From: Acidobacteriota bacterium
GTDB taxonomy: Bacteria; Acidobacteriota; UBA6911
Reading direction: 5' to 3'
Length of the DNA: 64,000 bases
Assembly (NCBI GenBank): GCA_012719355.1
Contig: JAAYAM010000117.1
Span: forward strand, 1-64,000
A program made the position numbers and the translations under genes. Positions within the stretch are counted from its first letter, which is position 1. The number at the start of each line of letters is the position of its first letter. A model generated the notes under the pieces. That model searched no databases. It was not told the DNA's origin and was given only the letters and a program-made list of their open reading frames with translations. This document shows, in pieces, positions 54,584-61,347 of this stretch.

Positions 54584-55195
54584 CTATTTATGCAGCGCCT
54601 CGTGCACATGGCCGACCATCGAGGCTGAAGGGGTAAGGGTCACATCCCCTTCTTCTCTCCATTTTGACGGGCATGCCTCGTTCGTCTTCTTGCTCAGGTA
54701 GATATTCGCCTTGAACTTTCTCATCAGTTCATCGATGTTGCGCCCGAGGTTGAAGAAGTTCACCTCGGCGTTCAGCAGTGTCCCCTCGGTGTTTATGATG
54801 AACGTGCCCCGCAGATTGATTCCCTGCTGTTCGTCATAGACTCCGAACATGCGGGATACTCTGCCGCTGGGATCCGCTCCCATGGGGTACTTGACCTTCT
54901 CCAGCTCCTTTTCAGATCTTTGCCAGGCGAGATGCACGAATTTGGTGTCGGTGCTGATCGTGACGACCTCAACTCCCATCTTCTTGAATCGATCATACTG
55001 CTCTGCCAGAGCAGCGAATTCGGTCGCTCATACAAAGGTGAAATCCGCCGGGTAGAAGAAAAGGATGGTCCATTTCTTCTCTGCCATGGCTTTATCAAGG
55101 CTGAATGTACCGAAATCCCCAACAGATGGCTCGTATGTCTCGATCTCGAACGAGGGAACTTTCTGACCAACTTTCAAAGGAAGATTCTCGATCAT
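54584..55195 (-). CDS. Selenocysteine-containing 2-Cys peroxiredoxin (AhpC/Prx1 type)
   Basis: A 203-residue thiol peroxidase read through one in-frame TGA at 55028-55030. Start ATG 55195 has AAGGAG seven bases upstream. The frame runs to the catalytic loop FFYPADFTFV, where the peroxidatic cysteine is codon 56 and is TGA. It then continues without a shift (ATEFAALAEQYDRFKKMG) into VVTISTDTKFVH, LRGTFIINTEG and the resolving cysteine C175 in NEACPSKW. The only stop in 203 codons sits exactly at the catalytic position, and a 7-bp hairpin with a GG loop follows it, which is how bacteria encode selenocysteine. Selenocysteine peroxiredoxins are known in anaerobes. The alternative is a single-base pseudogene. 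A divergent 250-bp gap separates it from a ferredoxin-like gene. Confidence 0.85.
54998..55014 (-). promoter_or_regulatory. SECIS-like hairpin for selenocysteine insertion
   Basis: On the minus strand CTGCTCT-GGC-AGAGCAG is a perfect 7-bp stem with a 3-nt loop, starting 13 nt after the TGA; the loop guanines are 21-22 nt downstream of it. Bacterial SECIS elements are hairpins directly 3' of the UGA with GG in the apical loop at about this distance. No bulged U is obvious. Confidence 0.65.
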
Positions 55196-55354
55196 ACTGG
55201 TGCTCCTTTCTGAAGTATTGCGGGCGGATGAATGCCCAGGGGGGAGGGAAAAAAGGACTGCTTGAATTAAGATAAGCGGCAAAAGTCGGAGTTTCAATAC
55301 CCCCTGGCTTTCTTTTGGCTCCGGACCCGGGCTCCGGAATCCTTTTTGTCTTTC

Positions 55355-55368
55355 TTGATGTGCGTCAA
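55355..55368. promoter_or_regulatory. FNR/CRP-type box upstream of the ferredoxin-like gene
   Basis: TTGAT-GTGC-GTCAA matches the FNR consensus TTGAT-N4-ATCAA at nine of ten bases. It lies 78 bp before the ATG, and its centre is about 44 bp before a start predicted from TATTAC at 55394-55399, a class II activator position. Confidence 0.6.
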
Positions 55369-55445
55369 GGACTATTGCCGCGCCGGAAGGCACTATTACG
55401 GTGCAAGGCCGATGTGCCATCTTTAATGGAAAGGGAGAGGAAATT

Positions 55446-56315
55446 ATGAGACGCAAGATCATCACTATCGATGAGGAAAAATGCAACGGTTGCGGTGCCT
55501 GCGAAAGCGGGTGCCCTGAGGGTGCCCTCAGGGTCATCGACGGCAAGGCCCGTTTGGTCGGTGAGTTGCTCTGCGACGGACTCGGCGCGTGCCTTGGTAC
55601 ATGTCCGGAAGGCGCCATTACCGTCGAGGAACGTGAAGCGGAACCGTACGATGAACTTGCGGTGATCAGAAATATTGTTCCCCAGGGACGGAACGTAATC
55701 CTTGGCCACCTGCAGCACCTGAAAGACCACGGGCAGTCCACATACCTGAAGCAGGCTGTCTCATACCTGCGGGAACACAAAATAGCGATTGATATGTTTC
55801 CGCAGATTGCGGATCATAATAGTGCTGGTGCTGCCAGGCAATGCCCGGGTTCGAAAACCCTCTCGTTTCCTGCGCAGCGAGCGATACCAGAAGGCGAGGA
55901 AATGCCCTCTCAACTTACACACTGGCCGGTTCAGCTTCACCTTATAAACCCGGCGGCGCCACATTACCGGAATTCGGATCTGCTTATAGCGGCGGATTGC
56001 GTCGCTTACGCCTACGCCGATTTCCACCGGACTTCATTGAGGGGAAGAACGCTGGCGATAGCGTGCTCCAAGCTCGACGCCCGTCAGGAAGTGTATGCCG
56101 ACAAGATCGCCGCCCTGATTGATGAATCGTGCGTGAAGTCAATCCGGGTCATGATAATGCAGGTGCCGTGCTGCAGTGGCCTGCTGCGTCATGTCGTTGA
56201 TGGCGCCGGCCGAGCCCGGCGGAGGGTGCCCGTTTCCTGCGTGATCGTGGGGATCGGCGGCGAGATTCTGAGCGAAACTCCCATCGACATCGAGTCGACG
56301 GAAGCGGTAGGGTAA
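55446..56315 (+). CDS. Ferredoxin-type (two 4Fe-4S sites) protein
   Basis: A 289-residue protein. The N-terminal dicluster ferredoxin domain (about 1-60) has a full CxxCxxCxxxCP (CNGCGACESGCPEGA) and a second set CDGLGACLGTCP with leucine in the second cysteine place, the usual pattern in this subfamily. A C-terminal domain (about 150-285) contains further cysteines (VPCCSGLLRHVV, AACSKLDAR-like) and no membrane segment. Such proteins occur in anaerobes as electron-transfer modules; the partner is unknown. GGAGAGGA precedes ATG 55446. The FNR box implies induction at low oxygen. Confidence 0.85.
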   Translation: MRRKIITIDEEKCNGCGACESGCPEGALRVIDGKARLVGELLCDGLGACLGTCPEGAITVEEREAEPYDELAVIRNIVPQGRNVILGHLQHLKDHGQSTYLKQAVSYLREHKIAIDMFPQIADHNSAGAARQCPGSKTLSFPAQRAIPEGEEMPSQLTHWPVQLHLINPAAPHYRNSDLLIAADCVAYAYADFHRTSLRGRTLAIACSKLDARQEVYADKIAALIDESCVKSIRVMIMQVPCCSGLLRHVVDGAGRARRRVPVSCVIVGIGGEILSETPIDIESTEAVG

Positions 56316-58120: not shown

Positions 58121-59137
58121 TCAGTAACTGTGCTCGGTGATCCTGACCTTGCCCCGAAACGCCCAATAGATCACGGCTGTATAGGCCAGAACGAAGGGCA
58201 TTCCGATCAGCGCGATGACTGTCATGATTCCGAGGGTCTTTTCAGACGATGCAGAGTTGAAGACCGTCAGATTGTAATCGGGGGAGGTGCTGGAGACCAC
58301 CATGTTGGGGTACAGCGTGAAGCTGAAGAGGAAGACAAGCGCAAGGATGGTAAAAGATGAGGAGAGGAAGGCATAGAATGGGCGGCCCAGAAAAATTGCC
58401 CGGGGTACATTGGCGAAGGCAAACACAGTGGCTATCACGATGAGCCACGACCAGCTGTGTTCACGAAAATTGCGGAGCGCCTCCGGCATCACCGCCATCG
58501 TGAAGATTGTTGCCAGCATATAGCTGATCAGGCTTAAGCCAAAGCCGCGCCACATCCAGCGATGAACGAGCTGCTGCAGCGCCTGCTCCGTCTTGAGATA
58601 GAGATAAATGGCTCCATGCATCACGGCAAATGAAACCGTCAGCAATCCGATGAGAATGGGGTAAGGCCTGAGAAGATCAAGAAACGCTCCCGTGAATACT
58701 CCCTCTGCGTTGATAGGTATGCCGATCAGGGCGTTTCCGGCTGCCACGCCAAACAGAAACGTAGCGAGCAGACTTGCGCCGAAGAACGAAAAATCCCAGA
58801 ACCTCTTCCAGGCGGCAGAATCACGCTTGCTGCGGAACTCGATCGAAACGGCGCGAAAAATCAGGGCAAACAGAAGGAGCATGAATGCTACGTAGAATCC
58901 CGAAAACACCGTTGCATAGACGTTTGGGAAGGCGGCGAACATGGCTCCACCGAATGTGACGAGCCACACCTCATTTCCATCCCAGATCGGGCCGATGGAA
59001 TTCATCATGATCCGTCGCTCGCGATCGTCCCGGGCGGAAAGGTGCAGAATGCCGACTCCGAGGTCGAACCCGTCGAGAATTGCATATCCGGCCAGGAGAA
59101 AGCCGAGCAGGATAAACCACAGCTGGTTCAGGTCCAC
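58121..59137 (-). CDS. cydB: Cytochrome bd oxidase subunit II
   Basis: A 338-residue polytopic protein with about eight or nine TM helices. N-terminal LWFILLGFLLAGYAILDGFDLGVG and WDGNEVWLVTFGGAMFAAFPNVYA are the CydB hallmarks. It partners CydA in the quinol-oxidising high-affinity terminal oxidase. It follows cydA by 12 bp. No cydX was found downstream. Confidence 0.96.
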   Translation of the reverse strand: MDLNQLWFILLGFLLAGYAILDGFDLGVGILHLSARDDRERRIMMNSIGPIWDGNEVWLVTFGGAMFAAFPNVYATVFSGFYVAFMLLLFALIFRAVSIEFRSKRDSAAWKRFWDFSFFGASLLATFLFGVAAGNALIGIPINAEGVFTGAFLDLLRPYPILIGLLTVSFAVMHGAIYLYLKTEQALQQLVHRWMWRGFGLSLISYMLATIFTMAVMPEALRNFREHSWSWLIVIATVFAFANVPRAIFLGRPFYAFLSSSFTILALVFLFSFTLYPNMVVSSTSPDYNLTVFNSASSEKTLGIMTVIALIGMPFVLAYTAVIYWAFRGKVRITEHSY

Positions 59138-59149
59138 AGAATGTGCTCC

Positions 59150-60580
59150 TCAATCTTTGTCTTTGGCTTCGGTCAATGAATCCGTATGCCCTGGATAGCG
59201 GGAAGCAACGTCGACGGCATCCCGTAGAGATCCTTTCGGCGGAATTGACACCGGTTCGGGTCCCTTCTGGATCTTGTCATTCAGAAGGTAGATCCATACG
59301 GCAAACAGCATCGCGTAAATAGCTCCGAACATGATGATGGATCCGAGCACCTGCGACGGAGTCAGATTCTGTGAGACGGCTTCACTCGTGCGGAGCTGAT
59401 TGTAGACAATCCAGGGCTGTCGGCCGACTTCAGCCGCGACCCAACCGATCTCATTTGCTATGAACGGGCCTATTACGGAAAACACAAAGACCCAGAGCAG
59501 CCACTTCCTGTTGAACAGAGTTCCCCGTTTCAGGCACCAGAGCGCGTACAGCGTCACTACGATGAAGTAAATTCCCAACCCAACCATAAGATGAAAGGAA
59601 AAGAAGGTCAGCCCGACCGGCGGGATATCTGCTCCGAACTGGTCAAGGCCGGGCACTGGCGTGTTGAAGTCGCGGTGCACCAGAAAACTCAGAAGGCCCG
59701 GGATTTCGAGGCTGTACCGGACCGTCTTTTCTTCGCTGTCGGGAATGCCGATAACGTGGATGGGAGCTCCGCTGTCGGTCGTGTGGAAGATGCCCTCCAT
59801 CGCCGCGAGTTTTGCCGGCTGGTGGCGCGCGACCATTCTTCCCTGCGAATCTCCCGAAATCAACATGGCAATCGAAGCCACCGCAGCCACCCATATCGCC
59901 GTCGTGAACGATTTCCGCGCGAAATCGACATGCCGCTCCCGCAGCAGGTAATAGGCGGAAACGCTCAGAACGAAGAAGGCGCCGAGGACGAATGCCCCTA
60001 GCAGGACATGGACCAGGCGGTCCACCGTCGACGGATTGAATAACACCTCTCTGAAGCTGGCAAGCTCGGCGCGCATGACCGTTCCGGCCGGGGTCGCGAC
60101 TTCGCGCAGAACGAATCCTGCAGGAGTCTGCTGCCAGGAGATCGCCACAATGATCCAGATTGCGGAAAAGATCGATCCGAGTGCAACGAGGATCGTTGCA
60201 ACGAAATGCATCTTCGCTGACACCCTGTCCCATCCGAAAACCAGAATCGCCAGAAAGCCTGATTCCAGAAAGAAGGCGAAGATCCCTTCGGCAGCCAGCG
60301 CTGAGCCGAAAACATCTCCCACATAGCGGGAATATGCAGCCCAGTTGGTGCCGAACTGGAATTCCATCACAATGCCTGTAGCAACACCAAGGGCGAAGTT
60401 CAGAGCGAAGATCTTAGTCCAAAACTTCGTCGCGGCTTCGTATTGGAGGTCCTTCGTCTTCAGATATCTCCCCTCGAGAAACACGAGCAGGAGACCGAGT
60501 CCTATCGTCAGCGGAGGGAAGAGATAGTGGAACATGATTGTAAGGGCAAACTGTATACGCGAGAGTATTACGACGTCCAT
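59150..60580 (-). CDS. cydA: Cytochrome bd oxidase subunit I
   Basis: A 476-residue polytopic heme-binding subunit. Heme b595 ligand region [27 protein letters not shown], and the quinol-loop signature [20 protein letters not shown] are intact; the total length indicates the short Q-loop form. It supports respiration at very low oxygen, consistent with a microaerobic or facultatively anaerobic host. The frame is open to 60625 but ATG 60580 begins the family-typical [11 protein letters not shown]; no clear Shine-Dalgarno is seen. Confidence 0.96.
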
Positions 60581-60627
60581 AGAGCGAGTCCGGAGGCTAC
60601 AGGTTTTTACAAGATTCCTACCCACAA

Positions 60628-60783: not shown

Positions 60784-61347
60784 ATGCAAAAGAACTTAAA
60801 CGGGAAAAAGGTAGCCATCCTGGTTGAAAATGGCTTTGAGCAGGAGGAGCTGACAAAGCCAAGGGAAGCCCTGATTCAGAGCGGAGCCGAAGCCCTGATT
60901 ATCTCGCCGGTCGAGGGTAAGGTCCGTGGATGGAATCACACGGAATGGGGGGACGAGTTCCCTGTCGACATTCCCCTGTCGCAGGCCAACAGCGGCGATT
61001 TCGACGCCCTGCTGCTCCCCGGAGGAGTGATGAATCCTGACAGGCTCAGGATGAACACTGCAGCGGTGGCGTTTGTGAAAGAGTTCTTCGACGCAAACAA
61101 ACCGGTTGCGTCGATCTGTCACGGACCATGGACTTTGATAGATGCCGGGGTCATCAACGGACGCACCGTGACGTCGTGGCCCTCAATACGGGAGGATCTG
61201 AAGAACGCCGGTGCGCGCTGGATCGACAGCGAGGTAGTCGTCGACAACGGACTTGTAACCAGCCGCAAGCCGGCTGACATCCCCGCCTTCAACGAGAAGA
61301 TGATCGAGGAATTCTCCGAAGGGATTCACGAGCGCAAGACCGCATGA
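60784..61347 (+). CDS. DJ-1/PfpI family type 1 glutamine amidotransferase-like protein
   Basis: A 187-residue DJ-1/PfpI protein. The nucleophile elbow has C112-H113 in ASICHGPW, with the acidic partner in the N-terminal QEELTKP segment. The family includes stress-induced glyoxalase/deglycase-like and chaperone activities; YhbO-type proteins protect against oxidative and thermal stress. A -24/-12 promoter upstream suggests activation by an NtrC-type regulator. No strong ribosome-binding site precedes ATG 60784. It is divergent from cydAB. Confidence 0.93.
   Translation: MQKNLNGKKVAILVENGFEQEELTKPREALIQSGAEALIISPVEGKVRGWNHTEWGDEFPVDIPLSQANSGDFDALLLPGGVMNPDRLRMNTAAVAFVKEFFDANKPVASICHGPWTLIDAGVINGRTVTSWPSIREDLKNAGARWIDSEVVVDNGLVTSRKPADIPAFNEKMIEEFSEGIHERKTA

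Follow-up and report, generated by a model that had tools for sequence, protein, structure and literature searches.

In the window, i.e. the whole stretch of 64,000 nucleotides of Acidobacteriota DNA analysed here, we identify a gene, sec-ahpC (54584..55195, minus strand), that very probably encodes a selenocysteine-containing peroxiredoxin of the AhpC type, with the UGA at codon 56 being decoded as selenocysteine (Sec). From the analysis of the sequence we put the probability of this reading at roughly 0.96. It is noted that the case for Sec is carried by comparative evidence, because the folding of the lone hairpin behind the UGA is not striking.

Reading frame, fold and catalytic residues

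Read on the minus strand, positions 55195 to 54584 translate into 203 residues followed by a TAG stop, with a single in-frame TGA, which is codon 56 (55028..55030). The TGA stands in the context FYPADFTFV-U-ATEF, i.e. at the peroxidatic position of a typical 2-Cys peroxiredoxin, and direct reading of the sequence gives a Shine-Dalgarno-like AGGAG (55203..55207, minus strand) 7 nt 5' of the ATG. The codon of the resolving cysteine, C175 (54671..54673, minus strand), is present in the translation and is invariant across 40 aligned relatives, in the Sec forms as well as in the Cys forms. Together with a match of 122 bits to Pfam AhpC-TSA, this bears out the initial annotation, which had read here a complete 2-Cys peroxiredoxin with one TGA at the catalytic cysteine and with the resolving cysteine kept. 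The truncation of the gene by standard gene callers, which had also been anticipated, does occur: ORF calling from the next in-frame ATG yields a 131-aa C-terminal ORF (54584-54979), and the N-terminal half may end up in a 250-aa ORF (55028-55780), fused there to 5' sequence. This implies that genes of the sec-ahpC type would be truncated in protein databases, and that an enzyme against oxidative stress in poorly cultured Nitrospirota and Acidobacteriota would thus have been overlooked.

The closest PDB entries to the protein by sequence are AhpC. The AlphaFold2 model, built with an alignment of 40 relatives, has a mean pLDDT of 92.8, and its structural best match is Salmonella AhpC (1n8j), with TM-scores of 0.84/0.92. 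In the 40 sequences Pro49, Thr53, residue 56 (C or U), Arg129 and Cys175 are invariant, so that all the features of the 2-Cys AhpC/Prx1 type, i.e. the P-x-x-x-T-x-x-(C/U) motif, the conserved Arg, the C-terminal resolving Cys and the fold, are found. The protein is thus like the AhpC of Salmonella and E. coli (TIGR03137) in its fold, its P-x-x-x-T-x-x-C motif (with Sec for Cys here), its resolving Cys and its C-terminal region. By contrast, it has Sec where they have Cys, it scores 190 bits against TIGR03137, below the curated cut-off of 272 for that equivalog, and its host genome is without a full-length AhpF.

Relatives and the codon at the peroxidatic position

Scanning GTDB genomes yielded 35 loci, in which the codon equivalent to codon 56 is TGA in 30 and TGC or TGT in 5. 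A second sample, of 396 genomes from the window's phylum, added further relatives, and once duplicates had been removed the genes whose motif could be read numbered 34 with Sec and 9 with Cys. Some contig coordinates recur in both samples (G250 with L030, G274 with L032), from which we take it that the genus of the window lies within Acidobacteriota. TGA is present in 34/34 of the distinct clade members and TGC/TGT in the 9 Cys relatives, Cys being the sole substitute for Sec, and hence the alternation between the two at this codon, which had been suggested as a check, is indeed seen. Besides the window, 33 distinct genomes have the TGA, and they are metagenome-assembled genomes (MAGs) labelled Nitrospirota, Acidobacteria, Rokubacteria, Deltaproteobacteria and others. 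One locus (L078) was rejected as a TGA-bearing relative, its TGA being the terminal stop and its site codon being TGC. Another relative, L072 (G090:C525:4344-4931), has the TGA together with in-frame TAG in its N-terminal part, with Ile replacing the resolving Cys (EGIPAQW); it may be a decaying copy, the result of a sequencing error or something else. In viral contigs the Sec site together with the hairpin was not found as an exact match, and the phage matches are below 60% identity.

The hairpin downstream of the UGA codon

Within the coding sequence 3' of the UGA lies the putative bSECIS core hairpin GCUGCUCU-GGC-AGAGCAG (54998..55015, minus strand), in RNA CUGCUCU-GGC-AGAGCAG, which we assign from the codon entropy, the compensation and the published constraints. 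The loop, GGC, consists of 3 nt and begins 20 nt past the UGA. Under the 7-bp stem there is an eighth pair, closed by U54997, which is G·U in the window and G-C in some relatives. The initial annotation had described a perfect 7-bp hairpin with a GG loop that begins 13 nt after the TGA: the 7-bp stem stands but the loop has to be corrected to GGC, and the distance of 13 nt holds when the eighth pair is counted, the Watson-Crick stem starting at 14 nt. In the published bSECIS model (PMC13188914) the loop has 3-9 nt, the stem has 4-16 bp, a G is within the first two loop positions, the distance from the UGA is 16-37 nt and the minimum free energy (MFE) is at most -7.5 kcal/mol. The hairpin in the window, with its 3-nt loop, 7-8 bp, 20 nt between the UGA and the loop and an MFE of -10.3 kcal/mol for the core (-13.4 kcal/mol for 45 nt), agrees with the model in every respect, so that the proposed check by bacterial SECIS folding has a positive outcome. 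Note, however, that single-sequence folding of the hairpin is uninformative (z = -1.24), on which ground hairpin stability alone was rejected as evidence.

The evidence comes instead from the comparison among genes. With as many as two mismatches allowed, the 18-mer has a chance expectation of 0.00 within the window. Over codons +5 to +10 on the 3' side of the TGA the normalised synonymous entropy averages 0.016 in the 34 Sec genes, versus 0.862 over the other 142 scored codons, and 2000 trials of synonymous shuffling within genes gave a mean of 0.873 with an SD of 0.029 and a minimum of 0.763; the codons that flank +5 to +10 vary freely. For the peptide AALAEQ, 4 of the 1536 synonymous encodings retain the seven Watson-Crick pairs, the first loop base being the only difference among them. 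That base is G in 34/34 Sec genes, matching the published bSECIS consensus, which by itself is not strong evidence since CTG is in any case frequently used for Leu. Codon +11 starts with T or C in 34/34, with the result that the eighth pair is kept. In the Cys relatives, by contrast, only 2-3 of the 7 pairs are formed and the hairpin is absent.

Two Sec-site loci, L054 of Nitrospirota and L072 of the window's phylum, share GCCGCTCTGGCAGAGCGG, in which a U-A pair is changed to C-G with the stem retained and with Gln replaced by Arg in the protein. L054 is far from Acidobacteriota in the tree; L072 is outside the tree, and the independence of its change from that of L054 rests on the differing phylum. 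One stretch would thus serve both as protein and as RNA signal, with the hairpin overriding the codon choice and with an amino acid being altered in two lineages to save a base pair. The candidate bSECIS is like that of the E. coli fdhF type in being an in-frame hairpin 3' of the UGA with a small apical loop that starts with G and with a spacing within range (PMC13188914); it is unlike it in its unrelated primary sequence and in having a core that is nearly invariant over several phyla.

Selenocysteine decoding machinery

The host genome, a 4.57 Mb draft in 377 contigs, contains tRNA-Sec with the anticodon tca, selB (398 bits), selA (555 bits) and selD (366 bits), so that all four genes to which the initial annotation had tied its reading, selB and tRNA-Sec among them, are present. 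The selD gene (L025, G000:C126:9885-10814, plus strand) has its own in-frame TGA near the N-terminus, in ASGUASK; SelD with Sec is a form already known. Ten other genomes of the phylum sample have a relative that is 65% or more identical to the window protein (that of G164 being a fragment without the Sec site), and selB is above the cut-off in 10/10 of them and selA is present in 9/10. The exception is G104, in which selA was not found despite a completeness of 91%, whereas the gene is present in its congener G164. In three genomes whose AhpC is a plain Cys form (G097, G120 and G395) neither selA nor selB is above the cut-off. The distribution of sec-ahpC in the window's genus is patchy, because several genomes of the genus have selA and selB yet are without the gene, which suggests loss or horizontal transfer. 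As a separate observation, one congener has a second selA beside a second selB-like gene (G085:C5:11719-14224), in addition to the main copies of both, and another genome (G250) has two selA matches.

Other explanations of the in-frame TGA

If the TGA were a true stop, the locus would be a pseudogene or would encode two separate proteins. This would agree with the truncated 131-aa C-terminal ORF obtained by ORF calling, and the TAG codons in frame in L072 (G090) indicate that decaying copies of the family may exist. The TGA is, however, kept at one codon in 34 distinct genes with the frame open on both sides, constraint at the nucleotide level is present directly 3' of it and the invariant catalytic residues lie on either side of it, all of which makes a true stop extremely improbable. 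A sequencing or assembly error at a TGC/TGT codon might be suspected in a draft as fragmented as this one, with its 377 contigs, but its probability is practically negligible because the 33 other distinct genomes, which are independent, share the identical TGA, with the hairpin in each.

TGA is read as Trp or Gly genome-wide in some bacteria, and the codon could also be read through as Cys or Trp without selenium, via a near-cognate tRNA or an altered code. We found no point in support of such readthrough here. Against it are the presence of tRNA-Sec, selA and selB in the genome, the conserved hairpin at bSECIS spacing, which fits Sec decoding, and the occurrence of Cys as the only replacement in relatives, as is expected of Sec, so that readthrough of this kind is very improbable. 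The decoding of codon 56 as Sec is the reading with which we proceed.

Relation to PrxU and to the known Sec peroxiredoxins

PrxU of Eubacterium acidaminophilum is an established Sec peroxiredoxin (Sohling et al. 2001, as cited in PMC9312934), and the peroxiredoxin (Prx) selenoproteins counted rose from 12 in 2006 (PMC1794560) to 91 in 2016 (PMC5029168). The catalogued Prx family (TxxU) is represented by a Bcp/PrxQ-type protein, COG1225 (PMC9312934, PMC13188914), with which the window protein has in common the TxxU active site and the peroxiredoxin superfamily, the window protein being, by contrast, of the AhpC type. Relatives of the window protein may already have been counted as 'Prx' in the lists of PMC1794560 and PMC5029168. 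A literature search, with subscription journals outside its scope and hence weak as evidence of novelty, gave no paper on a Sec peroxiredoxin in Nitrospirota. Sec peroxiredoxins are thus known in principle, and the group of the window protein is probably a distinct subfamily.

The maximum-likelihood tree, built with 47 proteins, joins the Sec genes in one group, within which one Cys gene alone, L056 of Eisenbacteria, is nested. The branch of L056 is long and its placement outside the Sec group is not rejected (AU p 0.341); L056 is a possible Sec-to-Cys reversion. Next outside the Sec group are Cys groups from Aquificota and Bacteroidota/Chlorobiota. One outgroup of the tree, L088, is a PrxU-type Sec peroxiredoxin on a Chloroflexota plasmid (CP069395.1, 137058-138024), annotated through its TGA, which is at the equivalent site.

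Could the window protein simply be a member of PrxU (NF040737)? It has the same fold and the same Sec position, and it matches the PrxU model over its full length with 177 bits. This score is, however, under the curated cut-off of 270, while L088 reaches 373 bits. A clade of L088 with the window family is rejected with AU p of 0.0257 and 0.0153, as judged with one PrxU-type sequence that has a long branch. Moreover, L088 has Thr at the position that is kept as the resolving Cys in the window family, and its hairpin, UUAACAGC-GGUC-GCUGUUAA, differs from that of the window family. Plain membership in PrxU is therefore unlikely. The likeness to PrxU lies in the AhpC-like fold, in Sec at the peroxidatic position and in an in-frame TGA followed by a bSECIS with a loop starting with GG; the differences lie in the score, the place in the tree, the resolving Cys and the hairpin.

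Sec was thus probably gained at least twice in the AhpC-like fold, in the window family independently of PrxU, which we regard as likely rather than proven because PrxU is represented by a single long-branch sequence. We lean towards a separate, unnamed Sec-AhpC subfamily, occurring at least in Nitrospirota and Acidobacteriota, with Sec acquired independently of PrxU, with the resolving Cys kept and with a near-frozen bSECIS whose preservation has imposed two or more compensatory changes of amino acid. The statement of the initial annotation that only the gene and its host context are new is then slightly too modest, the family being distinct from PrxU both in its score and in its place in the tree. 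Should the separation from PrxU hold, one and the same catalytic Cys has been changed to Sec at least twice, and with two lineages and the apparent reversion in L056, what favours Sec in a peroxiredoxin becomes testable by comparison.

Proposed mechanism and gene context

We propose the following pathway. SelB and Sec-tRNA-Sec would insert Sec at the UGA of codon 56 under the direction of the bSECIS hairpin. Held in place by Pro49, Thr53 and Arg129, U56 would act as a selenolate on H2O2 or organic hydroperoxides, reducing them and becoming a selenenic acid, which Cys175 of the partner subunit would turn into a selenenylsulfide. The selenenylsulfide would then be reduced by thioredoxin and thioredoxin reductase. 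We infer in this way the Sec insertion, the peroxidase activity, the mixed Se-S intermediate and the reductant. That thioredoxin and thioredoxin reductase are the simplest reductant for Sec-AhpC is a guess, made because the host genome has thioredoxins and thioredoxin reductase and no full-length AhpF was found in it.

The neighbours of sec-ahpC in the window include a 4Fe-4S protein (55446-56315), cytochrome bd oxidase (58121-60625) and a PfpI-family protein (60784-61347). Near sec-ahpC in the Nitrospirota loci are genes for a Fur-family regulator (10 loci), rubrerythrin (9), a flavodiiron-like protein (9; the Pfam match of the fragment is slightly below the cut-off) and desulfoferrodoxin (9), with hemerythrin and ferritin-like genes being rarer. 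This gene context points to a role in defence against oxygen and peroxide under a microaerobic or anaerobic way of life.

Other selenoproteins of the host genome

Other selenoproteins of the host genome were sampled through family searches. A Sec protein disulfide oxidoreductase (L092, G000:C11:3717-4370, minus strand) has the motif TPTUPYC and matches TIGR02187 PDO_seleno_TRX with 273 bits; among the 20 genomes searched it has one further occurrence, also with TGA. L092 was considered as a dedicated reductant of Sec-AhpC and rejected: a general partnership is unsupported, since among the 20 genomes it is present only in the host and in G101, and G101 has a Cys AhpC. A thioredoxin-like protein (L083, G000:C143:23197-23481, plus strand) has an in-frame TGA at ATWUPQC, its best NCBIfam match being to part of the selenoprotein TsoB model, far under the cut-off. 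Finally, the genome has a second Sec peroxiredoxin, of the PrxQ/Bcp type (L001, G000:C202:25879-26250, minus strand), with the motif TPGUTREAC and, 3' of the TGA, a stable hairpin of -20.4 kcal/mol, which fits the catalogued Prx (COG1225) entry more closely than the window protein does.
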